Below are positions 1,642 to 19,723 of a stretch of 38,275 bases of DNA, one piece after another; positions within the stretch are counted from its first letter, which is position 1, and each line of letters starts with the position of its first letter. Source of the stretch: Allobosea sp. (GTDB lineage Bacteria; Pseudomonadota; Alphaproteobacteria; Rhizobiales; Beijerinckiaceae); assembly GCF_030694325.1 (NCBI RefSeq), contig NZ_JAUXYO010000095.1:1-38275 (forward strand). Reading direction: 5' to 3'. The notes beneath the pieces are model-generated. The model was not told the origin of the DNA and ran no database searches. It was given only the letters and a program-made list of their open reading frames with translations. A program made the translations under genes and the position numbers.

Positions 1642-2781
1642 TCAGGCCGAAAACCGCGCCAGCGAGAAGGGCGCGAGGTCGAAGCGCGACCGGCCGCTGT
1701 CGGAGAGATCGGCCAGGATCTCGCCGATCGCGCTGGCGAATTTGAAGCCGTGCCCCGAGCAGCAGGAGGCGAAGACCGCTTGCGGCACGCCCGGCACGCT
1801 GTCGATGATGAAGTCCTCGTCCGGTGTCACGCTGTAGAGGCAGCCTTTCAGCGTCAGCGGCTCGCCCGCCGCATCCGGCAGGTAGCGGGCGAGGCAGGCG
1901 CGGATCAGCTCGACCTGCCGGGAGCTGGGCGTGCGGTCGTCCTCGCGCGGATCCATCGGCTCGCGCCCGAAATGCGGCCCACCCAGCTTGAAGCCGGGAT
2001 GCTCGTAGAGCGGGAAGCCGTAGAAACTGCCTTCGTCCACCGTCAGGATGAAGACCGGGAAGACGCCTTCGCGATAGAGCTCCGGCCGGCGCGTGGTGAA
2101 CCAGCCGATCGCCTGGCGCACCGTCGTCACCGTCCGTGCCAGCGCCGGCACCGCGTCCGTGATCCATCCCCCCGAGGTGATGACGAGCCGGCCGGCACTG
2201 TAGGTGCCGCGCGCGGTCCTGACCGTCACCCCGCCATCGGCGGTCGGCGCCCAGTCGAGCATCGGTTCGTTGGTGCGGATCTCGGCGCCGCGCGACTGGG
2301 CGAGGCCGACATGAGCGAAGATCGCCTTCTCGGAGGCGACGAAGCCGCCGCCGGGCTGCCACAGCCCGATATGGCCCGATGGCAGCGTGAAGCCCGGAAA
2401 GCGCCGTGCGAGCTCGCCGGCATCGAGCTGTTCGTGGGTGAGGCCGTGATCGAGACAGGATTGGAGCGAGGATTCCACCGGCCCGGCCCCGGCTGGGGCG
2501 AGATCGAGCGAACCGGTGACGTGCAGCAGCTTCAGCCCGGCGGCATCGCCCGTCTCCTGCCAGAGCTCATGGGCGCGTTGCACGATCGGCACATATTGAG
2601 AGCCCTCGAAATAGGCCAGCCGGATGATCCGTGTCATCCCGTGCGAGGAGCCCATGCCGTGACCGAGATCGAAGCGCTCGAGCCCCAGCACGCGCAGGCC
2701 ACGCTGTGCCAGATGCCAGCAGGCCGCCGAGCCCATGGCGCCGACACCCGCGACGATCACGTCATAGCTGTTGCTGTTCAT
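1642..2781 (-). CDS. solA: FAD-dependent amine oxidase of the sarcosine oxidase / N-methyltryptophan oxidase (SolA/MSOX) family
   Basis: The protein is 379 residues long, near the family's 370-390. A Rossmann FAD-binding motif lies at the N-terminus (DVIVAGVGAMGSAACWHLA, residues 7-25). The SSHGMTRIIRLAY segment (residues 45-57) matches the flavin-binding loop of monomeric sarcosine oxidases. Cys314 in CLYSVTPDEDFIID corresponds to the cysteine that carries covalent 8-alpha-S-cysteinyl FAD in MSOX and MTOX, and SGHGFKFASAIGE follows as expected. The predicted reaction is oxidative demethylation or deamination of a secondary amino acid, giving imine or formaldehyde and hydrogen peroxide. The start at 2781 is chosen because the Rossmann strand begins seven residues later; the open frame continues upstream without homology. 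It is the first gene of an operon with two exporters. The exact substrate is not readable. Confidence 0.85.
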   Translation of the reverse strand: MNSNSYDVIVAGVGAMGSAACWHLAQRGLRVLGLERFDLGHGMGSSHGMTRIIRLAYFEGSQYVPIVQRAHELWQETGDAAGLKLLHVTGSLDLAPAGAGPVESSLQSCLDHGLTHEQLDAGELARRFPGFTLPSGHIGLWQPGGGFVASEKAIFAHVGLAQSRGAEIRTNEPMLDWAPTADGGVTVRTARGTYSAGRLVITSGGWITDAVPALARTVTTVRQAIGWFTTRRPELYREGVFPVFILTVDEGSFYGFPLYEHPGFKLGGPHFGREPMDPREDDRTPSSRQVELIRACLARYLPDAAGEPLTLKGCLYSVTPDEDFIIDSVPGVPQAVFASCCSGHGFKFASAIGEILADLSDSGRSRFDLAPFSLARFSA

Positions 2782-12236: not shown

Positions 12237-13247
12237 GTGTCCCACCCGCCGCTCTATATCGACTTCCTCAACGCGCTCGACGTCGAGGCGCTGAAGCTCA
12301 CCGATGCGGAAATCATTGCCGCGGTCGAGGCAGGTCTTGCCGCCCAGGGCCGCGGCGAGACCGAGATCGAGCCCCGGGTCCATCTCATGCCGAAGGCGGG
12401 CGCGAACGGGCATTTCAACGTGCTGCGTGGCGCCTTCCGCGCCCCGATCGCCCGGGCCGGCGTCAAGGTGATCGGCGACTATGTCGACAACTACAAGCAG
12501 GGCCTGCCCTCCGAGATGGGGCTGTTGCTGCTGATGGACCCGCTGACCGGGGTGCCCACCGCGATCGTCGACGGCAGCCATCTCACCGACATGCGCACCG
12601 GCGCGATCACCGCCATCGGCGCCAAGCACCTCGCCCGCAAGGGCTCCAAGGTGCTCGGTCATATTGGCGCCCGCGGCACGGCCTACTGGAACGTCCGCCT
12701 GCTCGATTCGCTGTTCGACTTCGACGAGATCCGGGTCCATTCCCGCCGCCCTGAAAGCCGCGAGGCCTTCGGGGCCCGCCTCTCGGCCGATCTCGGCAAG
12801 CGCGTGGTCGTGACGGAGGATTGGCAGAGCTGCGTCGAGGGCGCCGACATCGTCGTCGAGGCCTCCCGACTGAATGCGCCCGAGCCGATGCTCAAGACCG
12901 CCTGGATCAAGCCCGGCGCCTTCGTCGTGCCCTATGGCACGATGAGCGCGGTCGAGTTGTCGCTCACAGACATCATGGACAAGCTCGTCGTCGACGATTG
13001 GGGCCAGTGCAAGGGCGGTCCCTTCGGCAGCCTGCGCGCCCATGTCGAGGCCGGCAAGCTCTCGGAAGCCACGCTCCATGCCGAGATGGGCCAGATCGTC
13101 GCCGGGCTCAAACCCGGCCGCGAGCGTGAGGACGAGACCATCCTGTTCTGGCATCGCGGCCTCTCGCTCTCGGACATCGCGCTCGGCCATTTCATGCTGG
13201 AGAAGGCCAAGACGATGGGCCTCGGCCAGAGGCTGCGCTACGCGTGA
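12237..13247 (+). CDS. Ornithine cyclodeaminase / mu-crystallin family oxidoreductase
   Basis: This 336-residue NAD(P)-dependent enzyme belongs to the OCD/mu-crystallin family. It has the substrate-side segment GVKVIGDYVDNYKQGLPSEMG, the helix MRTGAITAIGAKHLARKG, and a Rossmann nucleotide site written as GHIGARGTA at about residue 141. The family includes ornithine cyclodeaminase, alanine dehydrogenase and cyclic ketimine reductases, so a reaction on an amino acid or imino acid is expected; the substrate is undefined. The GTG at 12237 has GAGG seven bases upstream. Its stop overlaps the GTG of the next gene (GTGA), so it is coupled to a PhnD-like protein, an unusual partner. Confidence 0.85.
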   Translation: MSHPPLYIDFLNALDVEALKLTDAEIIAAVEAGLAAQGRGETEIEPRVHLMPKAGANGHFNVLRGAFRAPIARAGVKVIGDYVDNYKQGLPSEMGLLLLMDPLTGVPTAIVDGSHLTDMRTGAITAIGAKHLARKGSKVLGHIGARGTAYWNVRLLDSLFDFDEIRVHSRRPESREAFGARLSADLGKRVVVTEDWQSCVEGADIVVEASRLNAPEPMLKTAWIKPGAFVVPYGTMSAVELSLTDIMDKLVVDDWGQCKGGPFGSLRAHVEAGKLSEATLHAEMGQIVAGLKPGREREDETILFWHRGLSLSDIALGHFMLEKAKTMGLGQRLRYA

Positions 13248-14047
13248 ACCTCGTTGCCAACGCCCGCATGTATGCCGTCGATGCCGCGACGGCGGCGAAC
13301 TGGAGCGCGTTCTTCACCCGGATCGCGGCGATGTCCGGCGTGGCGCTCACGGTCATCCCCCACGCCGCGCCGGCACCGCTGGAGGATCTCTGGCGACGCG
13401 ACGATCTCGGCCTCGCCTTCATCTGCGGCTACCCGGTCGCGCGGGGCGGCTTCCCCGTGCGGCCGGTGGCGGCACCGGTTCCGGCCTCGGGCGATGGCCG
13501 CCCGTTCTATGCGACGCATCTCGTCGTGCAGGCCGACAGCGACATCGGCACACTGGAAGAGAGCTTCGGCCGCCGCCTCGGCTGGACGGTCGCGCATTCG
13601 CAATCCGGCTTCAACGCGCTGCGCACGCATTTGCTGCCGCATTGGCAGGCGAGGGGGGCGCGCTATGTGCAGACCCTCGGCCCGCTGCTGACGCCGCGCC
13701 GGGTGATCGAGGCGCTACTCGCGGACGAGATCGACATCGGCCCGCTCGATTCCTATTTCCTCGATCTGCTGCTGGCGGCCGAGCCGCACACCGCCGCGCG
13801 GCTGCGCATCGTCGAATCGACGGCACCCCGGCCGATGCCGCTGCTGGTGGCCTCGGACGGGGTTGGCGAAGAGGTCGTCGCGCGGTTGCGGGCGGCGCTC
13901 TTGGGCGCGCACGGGGACGCGGAGGGCCGCGCGATCCTCGCTCGGCTGCGGCTGTCGGGCTTCGCCGCCGTCGAGCCGGAGGACTATCGCGTGCTGGTCG
14001 AAGAGGTGGATGCGGCCGATAGCGCGGGATACCTCCAGCCGGGTTGA
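13244..14047 (+). CDS. PhnD-like substrate-binding-fold protein without signal peptide
   Basis: This 267-residue protein has the two-lobed periplasmic-binding fold of the PhnD (phosphate/phosphite/phosphonate) family. Recognisable parts are FICGYPVARG, the hinge strand PFYATHLVVQADSDIGTLEE, GWTVAHSQSGFNALRTHL and DIGPLDSYFLDLLL. There is no signal peptide or lipobox; the protein begins MNLVANARMYAVDAAT directly at the first strand. It is therefore probably cytoplasmic, acting as a sensor, carrier or enzyme accessory. The start GTG overlaps the stop of the OCD-family gene by 4 nt, which fixes the start. No permease or ATPase of its own is nearby; the next transporter is on the opposite strand. 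Confidence 0.75.
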   Translation: MNLVANARMYAVDAATAANWSAFFTRIAAMSGVALTVIPHAAPAPLEDLWRRDDLGLAFICGYPVARGGFPVRPVAAPVPASGDGRPFYATHLVVQADSDIGTLEESFGRRLGWTVAHSQSGFNALRTHLLPHWQARGARYVQTLGPLLTPRRVIEALLADEIDIGPLDSYFLDLLLAAEPHTAARLRIVESTAPRPMPLLVASDGVGEEVVARLRAALLGAHGDAEGRAILARLRLSGFAAVEPEDYRVLVEEVDAADSAGYLQPG

Positions 14048-14130: not shown

Positions 14131-15084
14131 TCAGGGCAGTGCCGTCCCCGCACTCCGCGCCCTTATGCCCGTGAGCGTGATCTGCCCCAGCGCCGCGCCG
14201 TTCTCAGCCCTGATCGTCGCCGCCTCGCGCCCTTCGGCCAGCAGCGCCGACAGCACCTCCCGGACCGAGAGCGAGCCCGGCAGCGCAAACCCGTCCGCGG
14301 CCTCGCCGGGCTCGACGGCTTCGGTCGCCCGCACCAGCGAGAGCCGGCGCAGCGCCCGGTCGGCGCCGACGAAATCGGCGACGAAGTCGTTCACTGGCGC
14401 GGCCAGCAGCCGGTCGGGCGTATCGTACTGCACCAGCCGCCCGTCCTTCAGGATCGCGACGACATCGCCCATGCGGATCGCCTCGTCGATGTCGTGGGTG
14501 ACGAGGATCACCGTCTTCTTCAGCCGCTTGAGGATGGCAAGGAACTCCTCCTGCAGCCGCCCGCGCACGATCGGGTCGACCGCGCCGAAGGGCTCGTCCA
14601 TCAGCATCACCGGCGGATCGGCGGCGAGCGCCCGCGCCACGCCGACGCGCTGGCGCTGCCCGCCCGAGAGATGGCGCGGATAGCGCGCGAGGAACTGGCC
14701 CGGATCGAGCCCGACGAGCTCCAGCATCTCCGCGACGCGCGCCTTGATGCGCGCCGGATCCCAGCCGAGGAGCTTGGGCACGGTCGCCACGTTCTGCGCG
14801 ATCGTCATATGCGGGAACAGGCCGATCTGCTGGATGACATAGCCGATATGGCGGCGCAGCTCGACCGGGTCGGCCTGGGTGACGTCCCGGCCGCCGACGA
14901 AGATGCGGCCCGATGTCGGCTCGATCAGCCGGTTGACCATCCGCATCGTCGTGGTCTTGCCGCAGCCCGAGGGGCCGATCAGGACGCAGACCTGTCCAGT
15001 CTCGATCGTCAGGTCGAGCGCGTCCACGGCGGGCCGCGCGACGCCGGGAAACAGCTTGGTGACCTTCTCCAGCCGGATCGTCAT
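14131..15084 (-). CDS. ABC transporter ATPase, quaternary-amine (OpuC/ProV/EgtV) type
   Basis: The 317-residue ATPase has Walker A GPSGCGKTTTMRMVNR (residues about 38-53), Q-loop YVIQQIGLFPHMT, signature LSGGQRQRVGVARAL and Walker B VMLMDEPFGAVD, followed by the H-loop THD. The TTTMRMVNRLIEPTSG wording is characteristic of the osmoprotectant/betaine uptake group. The C-terminal 75 residues replace the tandem CBS pair of OpuA-type ATPases. The ATG at 15084 overlaps the stop of the permease by 4 nt. It is the last gene of a five-gene operon with two permeases, a lyase homologue and a binding protein, and powers import of a trimethylammonium-type compound (inference). Confidence 0.92.
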   Translation of the reverse strand: MTIRLEKVTKLFPGVARPAVDALDLTIETGQVCVLIGPSGCGKTTTMRMVNRLIEPTSGRIFVGGRDVTQADPVELRRHIGYVIQQIGLFPHMTIAQNVATVPKLLGWDPARIKARVAEMLELVGLDPGQFLARYPRHLSGGQRQRVGVARALAADPPVMLMDEPFGAVDPIVRGRLQEEFLAILKRLKKTVILVTHDIDEAIRMGDVVAILKDGRLVQYDTPDRLLAAPVNDFVADFVGADRALRRLSLVRATEAVEPGEAADGFALPGSLSVREVLSALLAEGREAATIRAENGAALGQITLTGIRARSAGTALP

Positions 15085-15716
15085 GAGGCTCCCATCCGCA
15101 ACTGGCGTGTCATCAGCCGCTCGATCCCCGCAAATCCGATCTCGACCGCGAGCGCGAGCAGGGCGACCGCGACGGCGCCCGCGATCAGCTGCGGGAAGTT
15201 GAAATTCGCCATGCCCGCCGTGATCAACTCGCCCAGCCCCCCGCCGCCGATGAAGGCGGCCAGCGTCGCCGCCGAGACGATCTGCACCGCGGCCGTGCGG
15301 ATGCCGGCGAAGATCACCGGCAGCGCCAGCGGGATCTCGATCCGCGTCATCACCTGGCGGTCCGAGAAGCCCTGGCCGCGTGCGGCGTCGACGATGTCGG
15401 CATCGACCTCGGTCAGGCCAGTATAGGTGTTCAGCAGCAACGCCGGCAGCCCGTAGAGCGTCAGCGCCACCACGGATGGCAGGAAGCCGGTGCCCAGCAG
15501 TGGCAGCATGATCACCAGCAGCGCCAGCGAGGGCACCGTCCGCAGGATGTTGACGATGGCGATGGCGGCGTTCGCGAAACCCCGATGGCGGGTCAGCAGC
15601 AGGCCGAGCGGCAGCGCGATCAGCAGCACCGCGGCGAGCGCCACGCCCGTGAGCCAGAGATGGTTCTGCAGGGCGACGACGAAGATCTGCGGATTGGCGG
15701 TGATCCACTGCAACAT
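15081..15716 (-). CDS. ABC transporter permease, quaternary-amine type (second copy)
   Basis: This inner-membrane permease of 211 residues has five to six helices. The cytoplasmic coupling loop is DAARGQGFSDRQVMTRIEIPLALPVIFAGIRTAAVQIV, the EAA motif of OpuCB/OpuCD and EgtU-type permeases. SAATLAAFIGGGGLGELI is the usual following helix. The start ATG at 15716 shares one base with the stop of the other permease (TGATG). The two permeases are related to each other and probably form a heterodimer with the ATPase encoded downstream. Confidence 0.9.
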   Translation of the reverse strand: MLQWITANPQIFVVALQNHLWLTGVALAAVLLIALPLGLLLTRHRGFANAAIAIVNILRTVPSLALLVIMLPLLGTGFLPSVVALTLYGLPALLLNTYTGLTEVDADIVDAARGQGFSDRQVMTRIEIPLALPVIFAGIRTAAVQIVSAATLAAFIGGGGLGELITAGMANFNFPQLIAGAVAVALLALAVEIGFAGIERLMTRQLRMGAS

Positions 15717-16345
15717 CAGGCGCTCTCCGCCTGGTTGGCGCGGAGCTGCAGCTCGACCCGGCGCAGGCTCTCGTCGCAGAGGATCGCCAGCGCCGAGGTC
15801 GCGAGCGCACCGACCACGACCTTCTCGCCGAAATCCTGGGTGATACCCTGGAAGATGATGTCGCCGAGCCCGCCGGCATTGATGAAGGCGGCCACCGTCG
15901 CGACCGAGACCTGGGTGACGACGGTGATGCGGATGCCGGCGATGATGACGGGCAGGGCCAGCGGCAGCTCGATCGCGAAGAGCCGGCGCCAGCGCCCATA
16001 GCCCATGCCGTCGGCGGCATCGAGGATATCCGGCGAAATCTCCTGCAGGCCGGTCGCGACGTTGCGGATGATGATCAGCAGCGCATAGGCCACCAGCGCG
16101 ACGATCGCCGGCCAAAACCCCAAGCCCAGATAGGGGATCAGCAGCGCGAAGATCGCCAGCGCCGGCACCGTATAAAGCGCGCCCGAAACCAGCAGCACGA
16201 CGAGCGCGAAGCCCGGCCTGCGCGCCGAGAGCACGCCGAGCGGCAGGCCGATGGCAAGTGCGATGGCGAGTCCAACGCCGACGAGCTGGATGTGCTCCCA
16301 CAGCGCGGTCAGCAGCCGGTCCCAGTTCTCGATCGTCCAGTTCAT
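15716..16345 (-). CDS. ABC transporter permease, quaternary-amine type (first copy)
   Basis: The protein has 209 residues with about six hydrophobic segments. The conserved permease segment DAADGMGYGRWRRLFAIELPLALPVIIAGIRITVV (about residues 106-140) is followed by SVATVAAFINAGGLGDII, the signature of betaine/osmoprotectant permeases. Its ATG at 16345 overlaps the TGA of the lyase homologue (ATGA), and its stop is fused with the start of the second permease. The gene therefore sits in a tightly coupled operon order: binding protein, lyase, permease, permease, ATPase. It forms half of the translocation channel. Confidence 0.9.
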   Translation of the reverse strand: MNWTIENWDRLLTALWEHIQLVGVGLAIALAIGLPLGVLSARRPGFALVVLLVSGALYTVPALAIFALLIPYLGLGFWPAIVALVAYALLIIIRNVATGLQEISPDILDAADGMGYGRWRRLFAIELPLALPVIIAGIRITVVTQVSVATVAAFINAGGLGDIIFQGITQDFGEKVVVGALATSALAILCDESLRRVELQLRANQAESA

Positions 16346-17904
16346 GGGCCGATCCCGGTCGGCGCGGCGCTGTCGGCCAGCATCAGTCCGCCGGCCTCGA
16401 TCGCGACTGCCAGCGCCTCGTACTCCCGCCCCATCGGCCGGTCATCGTCGAGGCGGGCGACATGGCCGCGCACGAAAGCATGCGCAACGGCCGTGCCGCG
16501 TCCGAGCGTGATTGCTCCGCGCAGATCGACGGCTTCCGCCGCGACCACGAGTTCAATCGCTGCCAGACGAGTCAGGCGCCGCGCAATGGCATGCGTCTTC
16601 TCGACGATGGCCGGCGTCATCGGCGCATAATCCTCGACGCCGTCGGCGACGGGCAGCGTCATGGCGCCGAGCGGCAAGGCGAGATGGCGAATCTCGGCCT
16701 CCAGCGCCGCGGCGGTCTTCTGCGTCGTCGCGAAGCCGGAATGCGAGCCGCCATGCCGCGTCAGGAAGCGCGGCAGATCGCTCATGCCGGCGTTCATCAG
16801 CTTGACGATCCGCGCGGCCGAGGTCGCGGCCAGATGCGAGAGCGCCAGGCCGGCGGCCTCGAAGGTCAAGGCGAGTTCGGTCGTGTCGAAGTTGACGCTG
16901 GAGAGCAGGAGATCGCGCTCGACCAGCACGGCCGGGCTGTCGGGCGCGCTGGCGAGTTCGGCGTCCACTGTCTGCCGGGCGGCGGCGACGGCCCGCAGGG
17001 CACAGCCCGCGACCGGAGCGAGACAGCGGAACGAGATCGGGTCCTGCAGCCGCCGCGCCGCGCCGGGCGCCCAGAGATCGCTCCCGGCGAGCAACCGGCG
17101 CAGCCGATCGACCCCGGCGGCGTGGCCCGCCATGCCGCGCATCGCCGCGAGATCGGGGTCGAGCGGCGAGAGATTGGCGCGGAAGGCTTCGAGCGATAGC
17201 GCACCCGCTTGGAGTGCGGCTTCCAGCGCCGTGCTCATCGCCTCGACGGCCAGGGCGGCGAGGCCCACGCTCTGGGCATTGGCGTTGAGCAGCGCGAGCC
17301 CATCCTTGGGGCCGAGTGCGGGCAGGGCGATCCCGGCCGCCGCCATCGCTTCGCCTCCAGGCAGGACGGTGCCGCGTAATTCGGCCTCGCCTTCGCCGAT
17401 CAGCGGTAGGAAGGCCTGGGCGAGGGGGCTGAGATCGGCCTCGCCCAGCGAGCCGATGCGCCGCACGACCGGGTGAACGCCCGCGTTCAGCATCGCAGCG
17501 ATCGTCTCCGCCAGCACGGGCGAAAGCCCTGAGGCACCGTGGCATATGGCGACGAGCCGGGCCGCCAGCATGGCGCGGACTTCGATGGTCGAGAGCGGTT
17601 CGCCGACGCCGACGGCCCGCGCGCGGATGGCACGGGCCTGAAAGGCGGGGATGGCCTCGGCGTCGAGACGGGTATCGACCGCCGCGCCCAGCCCGGTCGT
17701 CAGCCCGTAGACGCTGTCGCCCCGGTCGAGCGCCCGCAGCACCACGGCACGCGCCGCCTCCAGCCGCGGAAGCAGGCCCGGATGCAGCCGCACCGCAACT
17801 CGGTCCCGCGCGATGGCGAGGATCGCGTCGGACCCGACCGGTTCGCCGCCGAGGATGATGGCGGCGGGCGACTCGTCGGCGCCGGCCGCAGGAACAGCGC
17901 TCAG
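16342..17904 (-). CDS. Histidine/aromatic ammonia-lyase homologue lacking the MIO triad (ergothionase-like)
   Basis: This member of the histidine/aromatic ammonia-lyase family would have 520 residues from a CTG at 17904, close to HutH length. From the first standard start (GTG 17793) it has 483 and loses conserved N-terminal sequence (IILGGEPVGSDAILAIARD). The fold motifs are present: VYGLTTGLG with the catalytic Tyr (about 66), LALLNANAQSVG and QDPISFRC. The MIO position, normally GSVGASGDLAPL, reads GSLGEADLSPL: one residue shorter and without Ala-Ser-Gly. The Tyr of QDPYS is Ile. Deamination by MIO is therefore unlikely. Ergothionase, which eliminates trimethylamine from ergothioneine without MIO, is the known precedent. 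Location inside a quaternary-amine importer operon supports this. The substrate remains an inference. Confidence 0.8.
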   Translation of the reverse strand: MSAVPAAGADESPAAIILGGEPVGSDAILAIARDRVAVRLHPGLLPRLEAARAVVLRALDRGDSVYGLTTGLGAAVDTRLDAEAIPAFQARAIRARAVGVGEPLSTIEVRAMLAARLVAICHGASGLSPVLAETIAAMLNAGVHPVVRRIGSLGEADLSPLAQAFLPLIGEGEAELRGTVLPGGEAMAAAGIALPALGPKDGLALLNANAQSVGLAALAVEAMSTALEAALQAGALSLEAFRANLSPLDPDLAAMRGMAGHAAGVDRLRRLLAGSDLWAPGAARRLQDPISFRCLAPVAGCALRAVAAARQTVDAELASAPDSPAVLVERDLLLSSVNFDTTELALTFEAAGLALSHLAATSAARIVKLMNAGMSDLPRFLTRHGGSHSGFATTQKTAAALEAEIRHLALPLGAMTLPVADGVEDYAPMTPAIVEKTHAIARRLTRLAAIELVVAAEAVDLRGAITLGRGTAVAHAFVRGHVARLDDDRPMGREYEALAVAIEAGGLMLADSAAPTGIGP

Positions 17905-18785
17905 TTCACCAGCCCCTTGGCCTTGAGGAAGGCGGCCGCGACGGTACGCGGCTCCTTCTTGTCGACCTCGACCTGACGGTTCAGCTCCTGCATCGTCGGG
18001 TTGTCGAGAGCGGCGCCGACCTTTTCGAGAATGGCGACGATCTTTTCGTTGGCGGCGATCTCGGGGCGCACGACGGGCGCGAGGAAATAGGGCGGGAACA
18101 GCGCCTTGTCGTCCTCGAGCGCGACGAATTTGTCGGCCGCGATCTGCCAGTCGGTCGAGAAGCCGTTGGCGACCTCGATCTGCTTCTGGTTCAGCGCCTC
18201 GTAACGCAGCCGCAGCGCCGCGAACTGCTTGAACTCGGCGAATTCGGCGCCATAGACCTCCTTCAGCCCCTTGATGCCGTCGCGCCGGTCGACGAATTCC
18301 GTGCCCGCGCCGAGCCGCAGCTTCGACGAGGCCTTGCCGAGGTCGCTCAGCGTCTTCAGGTTGAATTCCTTGGCCGTCTCGGGCCGGACCACGATCGCAT
18401 AGCCGTTGTTGATGCCCGACGGCTTCAGCCAGGTCAGGTTGAACTCCTTCTCGTAGAAGGCCTTGACCATGCCGCGCACCTTCTCAGGGTCGGTCTCGGT
18501 CACCCCTTGCGCCTTCATCACGGCGTTCAGCCCGGTGCCGGTATATTCGGGATAGAGGTCGATCGCGCCGCTCTTCAGCGCCTCATGCGCCACCAGCGTG
18601 CCGCCGAGATTGATCTTGCGCTCGACCTTGAAGCCGGCGGCTTCCAGCGCGGCTCCATAGAGTTCGGCGACGACGAACTGCTCGGTGAAGTTCTTCGAGC
18701 CGATCTTGACGGTCTGGGCCGAAGCGGCGGAGAGGCCGGTCGCAAGCAGGGCCGCGGCCCCGAGAAGGGTTCTGAAAAAGCGCAT
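17901..18785 (-). CDS. Periplasmic binding protein of the betaine/choline/ergothioneine (OpuCC/OsmF/EgtU-SBD) family
   Basis: This 294-residue exported protein has a signal peptide (residues 1-23, ending LSAASAQ). The OpuAC-type binding domain has the family signature TVKIGSKNFTEQFVVAELY, then INLGGTLVAHEALKSGAIDLYPEYTGTGL. These strands supply the aromatic cage that grips quaternary ammonium groups in the family. It also has NNGYAIVVRPETA and STDWQIAADKFVALEDD. It is the first gene of the operon, with an AAGGA ribosome site eight bases before the ATG. Its stop TGA overlaps the presumed CTG start of the lyase. In EgtU the same domain is fused to a permease; here it is separate. Confidence 0.92.
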   Translation of the reverse strand: MRFFRTLLGAAALLATGLSAASAQTVKIGSKNFTEQFVVAELYGAALEAAGFKVERKINLGGTLVAHEALKSGAIDLYPEYTGTGLNAVMKAQGVTETDPEKVRGMVKAFYEKEFNLTWLKPSGINNGYAIVVRPETAKEFNLKTLSDLGKASSKLRLGAGTEFVDRRDGIKGLKEVYGAEFAEFKQFAALRLRYEALNQKQIEVANGFSTDWQIAADKFVALEDDKALFPPYFLAPVVRPEIAANEKIVAILEKVGAALDNPTMQELNRQVEVDKKEPRTVAAAFLKAKGLVN

Positions 18786-18914: not shown

Positions 18915-19577
18915 TCAGTCGGCGGCGTTTCGTTCCCCGCCGCGGATCGCGACCGGCAGCCGGTTCTCAGGCGGCGAGAGCGGGCAGACCCAGGCTTCCG
19001 AATAGGCGCATGAGGGATAGTAGGCGAAGTTGAAATCGAGGATGAGCCGGCTCTTACCATCGCGGCCGAGATCGGCGCTCTTGATCGTGTCGAGCAGATA
19101 GCGACCGCCGGCAAAGCTCTCCCGGCCATTGCTGGCATCGCCGAAGGGCAGGAAGACACCGCCGCCATAGCTTTCGATCCAGTACAGCGTGAGTTCCCGG
19201 CCCAACGCTTGCGCGAGCCCGTCCGTCAGGGCGAAGGGCAGCAGCGTCATCGTGCCGTCCTTGCCGGCCTCGACGCGGATCACCTCGCGTTCGCGGGCCG
19301 GCACGGTCGCGACGGTGAACCGCAGCGCAGGATCGTAGGCGAAGCAATCGATACCGCGGAACTGGGCCCGGCGGGCGGCGGAGAGCGGCGATTGCGGATG
19401 CTCGCGGAAAAGCCGGTCGCGCACGCTGCGCCAGTGCCGCCAGCCCTCCTCGCCGGGCATGGCCCGCACGGCCGCGTAGAGATCGGCAACCTGCCGCCGC
19501 CAGTCGTGCAGCGTCTCGTAGCGCTCGTGCAGCGCCTCGGATGCGTCTCTCTCCCGTGTCCCTGCAAGGCCCCCCAT
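18915..19577 (-). CDS. DUF1684 family protein
   Basis: The 220-residue protein matches DUF1684. Features are the N-terminal helix with WRRQVADLYAAVRAMP, then REHPQSPLSAARRAQFRGIDCFAYDP, and the C-terminal hallmark DFNFAYYPSCAYSEAWVCPL followed by SPPENRLPVAIRGGE. Cys and Tyr residues in that hallmark are strongly conserved in the family, whose biochemical function is unknown. The ATG at 19577 is preferred because GGGGGAG lies eight bases upstream; another ATG is at 19595. It stands alone on the minus strand upstream of the transporter operon, separated by 129 nt. A shared function with that operon cannot be shown. Confidence 0.85.
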   Translation of the reverse strand: MGGLAGTRERDASEALHERYETLHDWRRQVADLYAAVRAMPGEEGWRHWRSVRDRLFREHPQSPLSAARRAQFRGIDCFAYDPALRFTVATVPAREREVIRVEAGKDGTMTLLPFALTDGLAQALGRELTLYWIESYGGGVFLPFGDASNGRESFAGGRYLLDTIKSADLGRDGKSRLILDFNFAYYPSCAYSEAWVCPLSPPENRLPVAIRGGERNAAD

Positions 19578-19723
19578 GCTGCTCTCCCCCGTCATGCCCG
19601 GTCGTGCCGCGTCCGCTGGCCCAGCAACGCGCGAGATCGCGTCTGGTTGCGAGCAGGATGGGAGGGCGGCGCGTCAGCTCCTGTCAGGGGCGGGCAGGAA
19701 GGCAGCCCCCGCCGGCGGCGGCC

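Follow-up and report, generated by a model that had tools for sequence, protein, structure and literature searches.

A betaine-transporter operon with an embedded MIO-less ammonia-lyase homologue in Allobosea sp. and its candidate role in histidine-betaine breakdown

We analysed a 38,275-nucleotide stretch of the Allobosea sp. genome (contig NZ_JAUXYO010000095.1, positions 1 to 38,275; hereafter, the window). In it, five minus-strand genes encode, in order, a substrate-binding protein (SBP), a homologue of the histidine and phenylalanine ammonia-lyases (HAL/PAL family) without the residues that form the 4-methylideneimidazole-5-one (MIO) cofactor, two permeases and an ATPase. This gene set supports the prediction of a betaine importer combined with an amine-eliminating MIO-less lyase, and we hold with moderate confidence that the unit imports and cleaves an amino-acid betaine, most likely of the histidine type. 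Two convergent genes, for an ornithine cyclodeaminase/mu-crystallin-family (OCD) enzyme and a PhnD-like protein, very probably belong to the functional unit as well. These partners probably point away from simple cleavage of ergothioneine and towards a partly uncharted route of breakdown.

The operon and its lyase

An earlier note on this DNA had described five tightly overlapping genes, and both the coordinates and the Pfam matches agree: the genes overlap head to tail by 4, 4, 1 and 4 nt. The extent it gave to the unit, 14131..18785, holds for these five genes but leaves out the OCD and PhnD-like partners (12237-14047), which lie on the plus strand and overlap each other by 4 nt. The features are as follows.

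17901..18785, minus strand: OpuAC-family SBP, similar to Archaeoglobus fulgidus ProX (AfProX) (Pfam OpuAC, 216 bits)
16342..17904, minus strand: MIO-less HAL/PAL-family lyase, ergothionase-related, Arg96 subtype (PF00221 Lyase_aromatic, 404.5 bits; probable CTG start at 17904)
17422..17454, minus strand: GSLGEADLSPL, site of the missing Ala-Ser-Gly (MIO) triad
17617..17619, minus strand: lyase Arg96 codon (position of Pseudomonas putida HutH His83)
17037-17035, minus strand: Ile codon of lyase QDPIS (Tyr in QDPYS)
16717..16719, minus strand: lyase Lys396 codon (Val in HutH, Lys in ergothionase)
16633..16635, minus strand: lyase Glu424 codon (HutH Glu414; ergothionase chain position 411)
15716..16345, minus strand: ABC permease 1 (BPD_transp_1; nearest NCBIfam model ProW, below cut-off)
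15081..15716, minus strand: ABC permease 2 (BPD_transp_1; nearest NCBIfam model ProW, below cut-off)
14131..15084, minus strand: ABC ATPase (ABC_tran; nearest NCBIfam model proV, 314.7 bits against a cut-off of 326.6)
12237..13247, plus strand: OCD-family enzyme, WHRG subfamily, GTG start (Pfam 185.5 bits, frame from 12279)
13244..14047, plus strand: PhnD-like protein (PF12974, Pfam 105.6 bits)
18915..19595, minus strand: DUF1684 protein upstream of the operon on the same strand, a possible extra member (Pfam 120.1 bits)

The lyase does not carry either hallmark of HutH. Its MIO site reads GSLGEADLSPL, where the canonical HutH of the same genome reads GSVGASGDLAPL, and the tyrosine of the QDPYS motif is replaced by isoleucine. 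The earlier note had recognised both changes, although the coordinates it assigned to the first (17419-17454) were one codon too long. A complete Ala-Ser-Gly was found in none of the aligned window-type rows. These motifs, together with the separate HutH in the genome, rule out canonical HutH identity, and an open frame with conserved relatives rules out chance or a pseudogene. The earliest ATG, GTG or TTG in the lyase frame is the GTG at 17793; because conserved N-terminal residues extend up to 37 codons upstream of it, translation probably starts at CTG 17904, within the CTGA overlap with the SBP gene.

The closest PDB match of the lyase is the ergothionase of Treponema denticola (6s7j; 31% identity), while a structure comparison gave no separation, as 6s7j, HAL and aminomutase rows were tied. 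The phylogenetic tree bore out the expectation of the earlier note that the protein would group with ergothionase: the MIO-less rows separate from five HALs at 100/100 support, and a 47-row MIO-less clade at 100/99 contains both the window lyase and ergothionase. A second paralogue on a Rhizobium lusitanum plasmid (L092:2560-4110, minus strand) branches earlier. This more distant MIO-less HAL paralogue reads KGSVGYLIATSH at the MIO site, has its own OpuAC-type ABC transporter and adjoins frames that by eye resemble a CaiB CoA-transferase, a hydroxyacyl-CoA dehydrogenase and an enoyl-CoA hydratase. Another MIO-less lyase, on a plasmid of Paraburkholderia sp. PGU19 (L100:13067-14710, plus strand), has an N-terminal signal peptide by eye and is possibly periplasmic.

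In the alignment, Tyr66, Arg293, Lys396 and Glu424 are common to the window lyase and T. denticola ergothionase; the Lys396 position is Lys in 120/120 window-type and 115/120 T. denticola-type rows, and Val in HutH. The two groups differ at HutH position 83, which we take to face the substrate ring and to set ring selectivity in the HAL/PAL family. Here, Arg occupies 118 of the 120 listed window-type proteins (with a gap in the other 2), versus His in all 120 listed T. denticola-type proteins, so a reading of the lyase as an ergothionase in the strict sense is not supported. Matches of a Mesorhizobium relative were mixed (Arg in 80/120 listed, His in 40/120). All His-type rhizobial rows fall into one clade within the Arg group, so on this tree the rhizobial His-type is a single reversion.

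The SBP looks like a betaine binder and not like EgtU, because its cage is kept but three EgtU-specific positions differ. We mapped its residues through AfProX (1sw2, 183.5 bits; EgtUC chains scored about 148-156 bits). The quaternary-amine cage comprises Y81, Y129, F209, Y233 and N127, with one cage Tyr replaced by Phe (F209), and the carboxylate contacts K31, T84 and R167 are kept, as is E163. The EgtU specificity determinants, Gly244 and the Phe293/Tyr337 switch, were taken from the accessible part of PMC9732360; at these positions the SBP has F33, Y81 and I125, all three different from EgtU. The 24 tabulated cluster-3 relatives agree throughout, the first two of these positions being Phe and Tyr and the third either Ile or Val. 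In addition, the binding domain of EgtU is fused to a permease, whereas the binding domain and two permeases of the window are separate genes. Residue mapping thus rules out EgtU orthology of the SBP, and the 'EgtUV type' importer proposed earlier is not supported; the likeness of the pocket to known betaine binders stands for the cage and carboxylate contacts but not for the EgtU-specific positions.

Conserved partners and links to histidine utilisation

A contig scan for lyase relatives confirmed 131, of which the best 80 loci were kept and analysed. These comprise 59 Arg-type loci (43 full-length, at least 18.5 kb, and 16 shorter) and 21 His-type loci (18 full-length and 3 shorter). Counting an OCD gene as present at 60% identity or more, we found it in 37/43 full-length and 9/16 shorter Arg-type loci, and in 0/18 and 0/3 His-type loci, respectively. 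The corresponding Fisher value of 1e-10 overstates independence, because the Arg/His linkage reflects the single change described above. The full-length Arg-type loci also encode the PhnD-like protein (27/43), an OpuAC SBP (28/43) and a desaturase (16/43); six lack the OCD gene (L009, L032, L034, L044, L080 and L083).

The placement of the lyase inside a betaine-transporter operon, already pointed out in the earlier note, is kept in relatives. The Ancylobacter locus L040 is a single same-strand run of OCD, SBP, lyase, two permeases, ATPase and PhnD-like genes, and the Arg-type locus of Hoeflea (L036) also forms one same-strand run. In R. tropici (L093), lyase, OCD and PhnD-like genes stand together with no transporter within the stretch read, and in Pseudomonas loci lyase and OCD are repeatedly accompanied by another, different SBP of the OpuAC family. 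Between the window and R. johnstonii, identity is 63% for the SBP, 68% for the OCD enzyme, 48% for the lyase and 39% for the PhnD-like protein.

Beyond these loci, we examined co-occurrence in a sample of 60 genomes of the window's family (OCD E-value at most 1e-60, window-type lyase at most 1e-80). The OCD gene was found in 8 genomes and the lyase in 7: both in 6, the lyase alone in 1, OCD alone in 2 and neither in 51. The hypergeometric p value is 3.8e-6 (2.4e-5 if the own genome is left out); both values are optimistic given relatedness and three genomes (G530, G529 and G523) that overlap scanned loci (L013, L016 and L029). The two genes need not be adjacent: in G517 they lie 1.3 Mb apart, with one TAA in the lyase frame, and in the draft genome G523 they are on different contigs. 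Of the seven family OCD loci read outside the own genome, the lyase adjoins OCD in three and a desaturase takes its place in two; another has neither gene, and the last is cut short.

The OCD enzymes are well conserved, with a mean column identity of 77% over 23 rows. The WHRG motif is present in all 23 and in 52 of the 56 extracted frames; one of the other four is a broken gene region in L098. Its His306-Arg307 pair contrasts with Ser-Val and Ser-Thr (KSVG, DSTG) in the two PDB relatives shown. As for the PhnD-like protein, it is probably cytoplasmic, because no signal peptide is visible by eye. Its Cys61 is invariant in 24/24 aligned rows, and its closest PDB chains are AioX (named phosphite-binding-like) and ArrX, both of which presumably bind arsenic oxyanions. 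The similarity to AioX is at most a hint of arsenic-oxyanion (arsenite) binding.

Several further genes were observed around these loci. A DUF1684 gene is found in 14/80 loci besides the window (Bosea, Alsobacter and other Hyphomicrobiales), and about 10 kb from the OCD gene the window has a frame (1642-2781, minus strand) resembling by eye monomeric sarcosine/N-methyl-amino-acid oxidases. A PF00487 desaturase-type membrane protein lies near the lyase and/or OCD genes in L031 (639-1580), L078, L081, L086, L120, L123 and L127, spanning Azospirillum, Pseudomonas, Acetobacter and members of the window's family. In L021 and L029 (L125 is the same contig as L029), the genes flanking the Arg-type lyase encode FAD enzymes that resemble dimethylglycine dehydrogenase (by eye) and sarcosine oxidase, as would suit the metabolism of methylated amines. 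In Sinorhizobium sp. B11 (L094:6600-8995), two NtaA/DmoA-type FMN monooxygenases share a run with transporter, OCD, lyase and PhnD-like genes. Finally, mandelate-racemase-superfamily proteins with 67% mutual identity (L123:6340-7524 and L126:8975-10156) adjoin the OCD gene in one genome and an Arg-type lyase in another; we considered betaine epimerases and claim no function, as their best PDB matches are uncharacterised isomerases.

Multiple lineages connect the unit to histidine utilisation (hut). The own genome (4.63 Mb, 357 contigs) encodes the canonical HutH next to frames that resemble hutI and hutG by eye, and its hut contig carries the one urocanase (HutU) match and the one HutC above the curated cut-off. 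On plasmid pRL12 of R. johnstonii, a run encodes a CoA-transferase, a short-chain dehydrogenase/reductase (SDR), MaoC, HutC, lyase, SBP, OCD, PhnD-like protein, two permeases and an ATPase; the HutC scores 279.1 bits against an equivalog cut-off of 220. On a Comamonadaceae plasmid that encodes a MIO-containing HutH, hutU and hutD/I/F/G enclose the OCD and PhnD-like genes, and a Rhodococcus plasmid has a PhnD-like gene and a MIO-containing HutH beside an OCD region. In Paraburkholderia, the OCD gene is followed by HutU (71% identical to that of Comamonadaceae) and then by a His-type MIO-less lyase with a signal-peptide-like start. In one family member with no OCD match (G496), the neighbours of an Arg-type lyase are hutF/I/H/U, a desaturase gene and a gene for a PhnD-like protein.

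We also searched 15 loci for a HutC-like palindrome, allowing up to 3 mismatches to an assumed consensus. Such sites are located shortly before the run or the lyase in L091, L092, L096 and L036, from Rhizobium, Martelella and Hoeflea; L092 has a second one before a divergent transporter operon, and in L095 one lies upstream of hut-linked genes, while the hits with 3 mismatches in L050 and L040 resemble chance matches. HutC regulons of Rhizobiales include multiple HutH paralogues, according to the accessible part of PMC5343134. HutU was found in 24 of the 25 lyase genomes tested, once in two copies (20 Arg-type with OCD, 2 Arg-type without and 3 His-type, drawn from the 80 loci), compared with 26 of 76 genomes of the class, the own genome included. 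One class genome of 2.7 Mb (G482) has seven urocanase matches, five at 635-700 bits, possibly a divergent urocanase family.

Proposed pathway and its alternatives

In our favoured reading, the cage-type SBP, OpuC-like permeases and ATPase would import the betaine, and the MIO-less lyase would eliminate a quaternary, probably trimethyl-, amine by acid/base chemistry. This would leave an acrylate, most likely either urocanate itself or a form of it with a ring substituent. The OCD-family enzyme and PhnD-like protein would provide a conserved second step, in which OCD might, as a guess, transfer a hydride and remove an anionic ring substituent, such as the sulfonate of 2-sulfourocanate derived from ergothioneine sulfonate. 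The one HutU/HutI/HutG route of the genome would then complete the breakdown of urocanate. A histidine origin of the betaine is likely, mostly by analogy with relatives of this locus, and the best candidates are hercynine, which would require no OCD step on a ring substituent, or an oxidised anionic derivative of ergothioneine. We speculate that the additional arginines of the lyase (Arg96) and OCD (His306-Arg307), positions which we assume to lie on the substrate side, fit an extra negative charge; a sulfonate on the substrate would explain Arg in both enzymes and give OCD a role. A fuller version is tentative and rather doubtful: an undescribed histidine-betaine route of soil and root bacteria, in which an Arg-type lyase and a reductively desulfonating or desulfurating WHRG OCD would lead to urocanate, the PhnD-like protein would bind oxyanions in the cytoplasm, betaine transporters could replace one another, and some lineages would add a desaturase-type oxygenase.

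Several observations weigh against this interpretation. The window has no hut gene at the operon and no HutC-type site within 3 mismatches of the assumed consensus, and the palindrome is absent from 8 of the 15 loci, the own hut contig among them. The enrichment of HutU is weak once genome size is considered, since 16 of the 22 non-own class genomes of at least 4 Mb have it. OCD is not specific to the Arg-type, as it also adjoins a MIO-containing HutH (L095, L098) and a His-type lyase (L100), and two family genomes carry it without the lyase. The CoA-transferase, SDR and MaoC neighbours in R. johnstonii and the desaturase-type oxygenases elsewhere fit poorly, as do the homoprotocatechuate-type genes (named by eye) adjoining one family OCD. 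The charge argument, moreover, draws on alignments and no ligand-bound structure.

We weighed four other explanations. Import of ergothioneine itself and its cleavage by a true ergothionase to trimethylamine and thiourocanate would agree with the nearest relative of known function, with the Lys396 and Glu424 matches to the T. denticola enzyme, and with the lack of an EgtD match in the own genome, by which ergothioneine would come from outside. Nonetheless, we consider it unlikely. In the Burkholderia-type ergothioneine route, a second urocanase-like gene is expected as thiourocanate hydratase; the earlier note had suggested looking for one, and we found a single HutU in the own genome and no second urocanase. 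Ergothioneine is disfavoured as the substrate, because the SBP lacks the EgtU positions, the residue that is His in the T. denticola group is Arg here (118/118 readable window-type rows), and a second urocanase is missing; it also leaves the OCD and PhnD-like partners unexplained. The alternative offered earlier, another trimethylhistidine compound, fits better. An improbable option, too, is the betaine of another aromatic amino acid, such as hypaphorine or tyrosine betaine, whose acrylate would be processed by CoA activation or ring oxidation. The CoA-transferase, SDR and MaoC genes of R. johnstonii, which are joined to hutC and the lyase gene by head-to-tail overlaps, speak for it, together with the homoprotocatechuate-type neighbours and the presumed ring-selectivity role of the HutH His83 position. 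Against it stand the HutC equivalog and its sites, the hut-gene neighbours and OCD beside HutU in several lineages, and genes for CoA activation or ring cleavage are missing from the window unit.

It appears very unlikely that the unit degrades an N-substituted histidine, for instance an opine or a metallophore built on histidine, with OCD cleaving the opine link and the lyase acting as a C-N lyase. The OCD enzyme does match the SbnB model (129.9 bits, far below the model's cut-off), and by eye a TonB receptor and FecIR-like genes occur in Pseudomonas loci and Dpp-type ABC genes in Azospirillum loci; however, aromatic-cage SBPs point to quaternary amines, and loss of MIO would suit a good leaving group such as trimethylamine. 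Strongly disfavoured, in turn, is the view that the gene is a HutH paralogue, decayed or MIO-containing, that has no function of its own. Many named relatives are annotated as histidine ammonia-lyase, yet the frame is open, relatives occur across Alpha-, Beta- and Gammaproteobacteria, the window-type rows have no complete Ala-Ser-Gly, and the canonical HutH is encoded elsewhere in the genome.

Relation to known systems

If the favoured histidine-betaine reading holds, the unit could show how betaines of fungi or plants serve soil bacteria as sources of nitrogen and methylamines. Recognising the MIO-less relatives alters the annotation of histidine and methylamine metabolism in rhizobia, Bosea, Azospirillum and Pseudomonas, and the pairing of lyase and OCD subfamilies supplies a concrete, testable second enzyme for the pathway. 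No paper found by our literature search, whose reach mostly excluded subscription journals, names the lyase-OCD unit. Part of the system may nevertheless be covered by prior art, because the lyases of Rhizobium rhizogenes are Arg-type and R. rhizogenes K84 was, we assume, formerly Agrobacterium radiobacter. The A. radiobacter ergothioneine-sulfonate catabolic pathway (Yan 2022, cited in PMC13405746), which we compared by title alone, may thus overlap with it. According to the accessible part of PMC13405746, firm identifications of ergothionase are confined to Burkholderia, two species of Cupriavidus, A. radiobacter and T. denticola.

Compared with HutH, the window lyase shares the fold and keeps Tyr66, Gln287, Arg293, Phe339 and Glu424, but it lacks Ala-Ser-Gly and Tyr280, has Arg for His83 and has gained Lys396. 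The transporter resembles OpuC/AfProX-type systems in its SBP family and its gene set of an SBP, two permeases and an ATPase, with AfProX Phe15 and Tyr63 kept; it differs in that the operon encodes a lyase, and in the changes of AfProX Tyr190 to Phe and Asp109 to Asn. With EgtUV it has in common a cage-type OpuAC SBP, the carboxylate-binding Lys/Thr/Arg and a Glu at the E375 position, whereas Gly244, Phe293 and Tyr337 are missed and the SBP and two permeases are unfused. Ergothionases are known from T. denticola (6s7j/6s7q) and Burkholderia sp. HME13. The lyase resembles the T. denticola enzyme in the HAL/PAL fold without the MIO triad, in Leu/Ile at HutH Tyr280, and in SFRC, the QKT Lys and Glu424. 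It differs, at 31% identity, by Arg96 for His, Asn207 for Ser and Tyr426 for His, and by its OCD and PhnD-like partners, which the accessible part of the ergothionase account in PMC13405746 does not mention.

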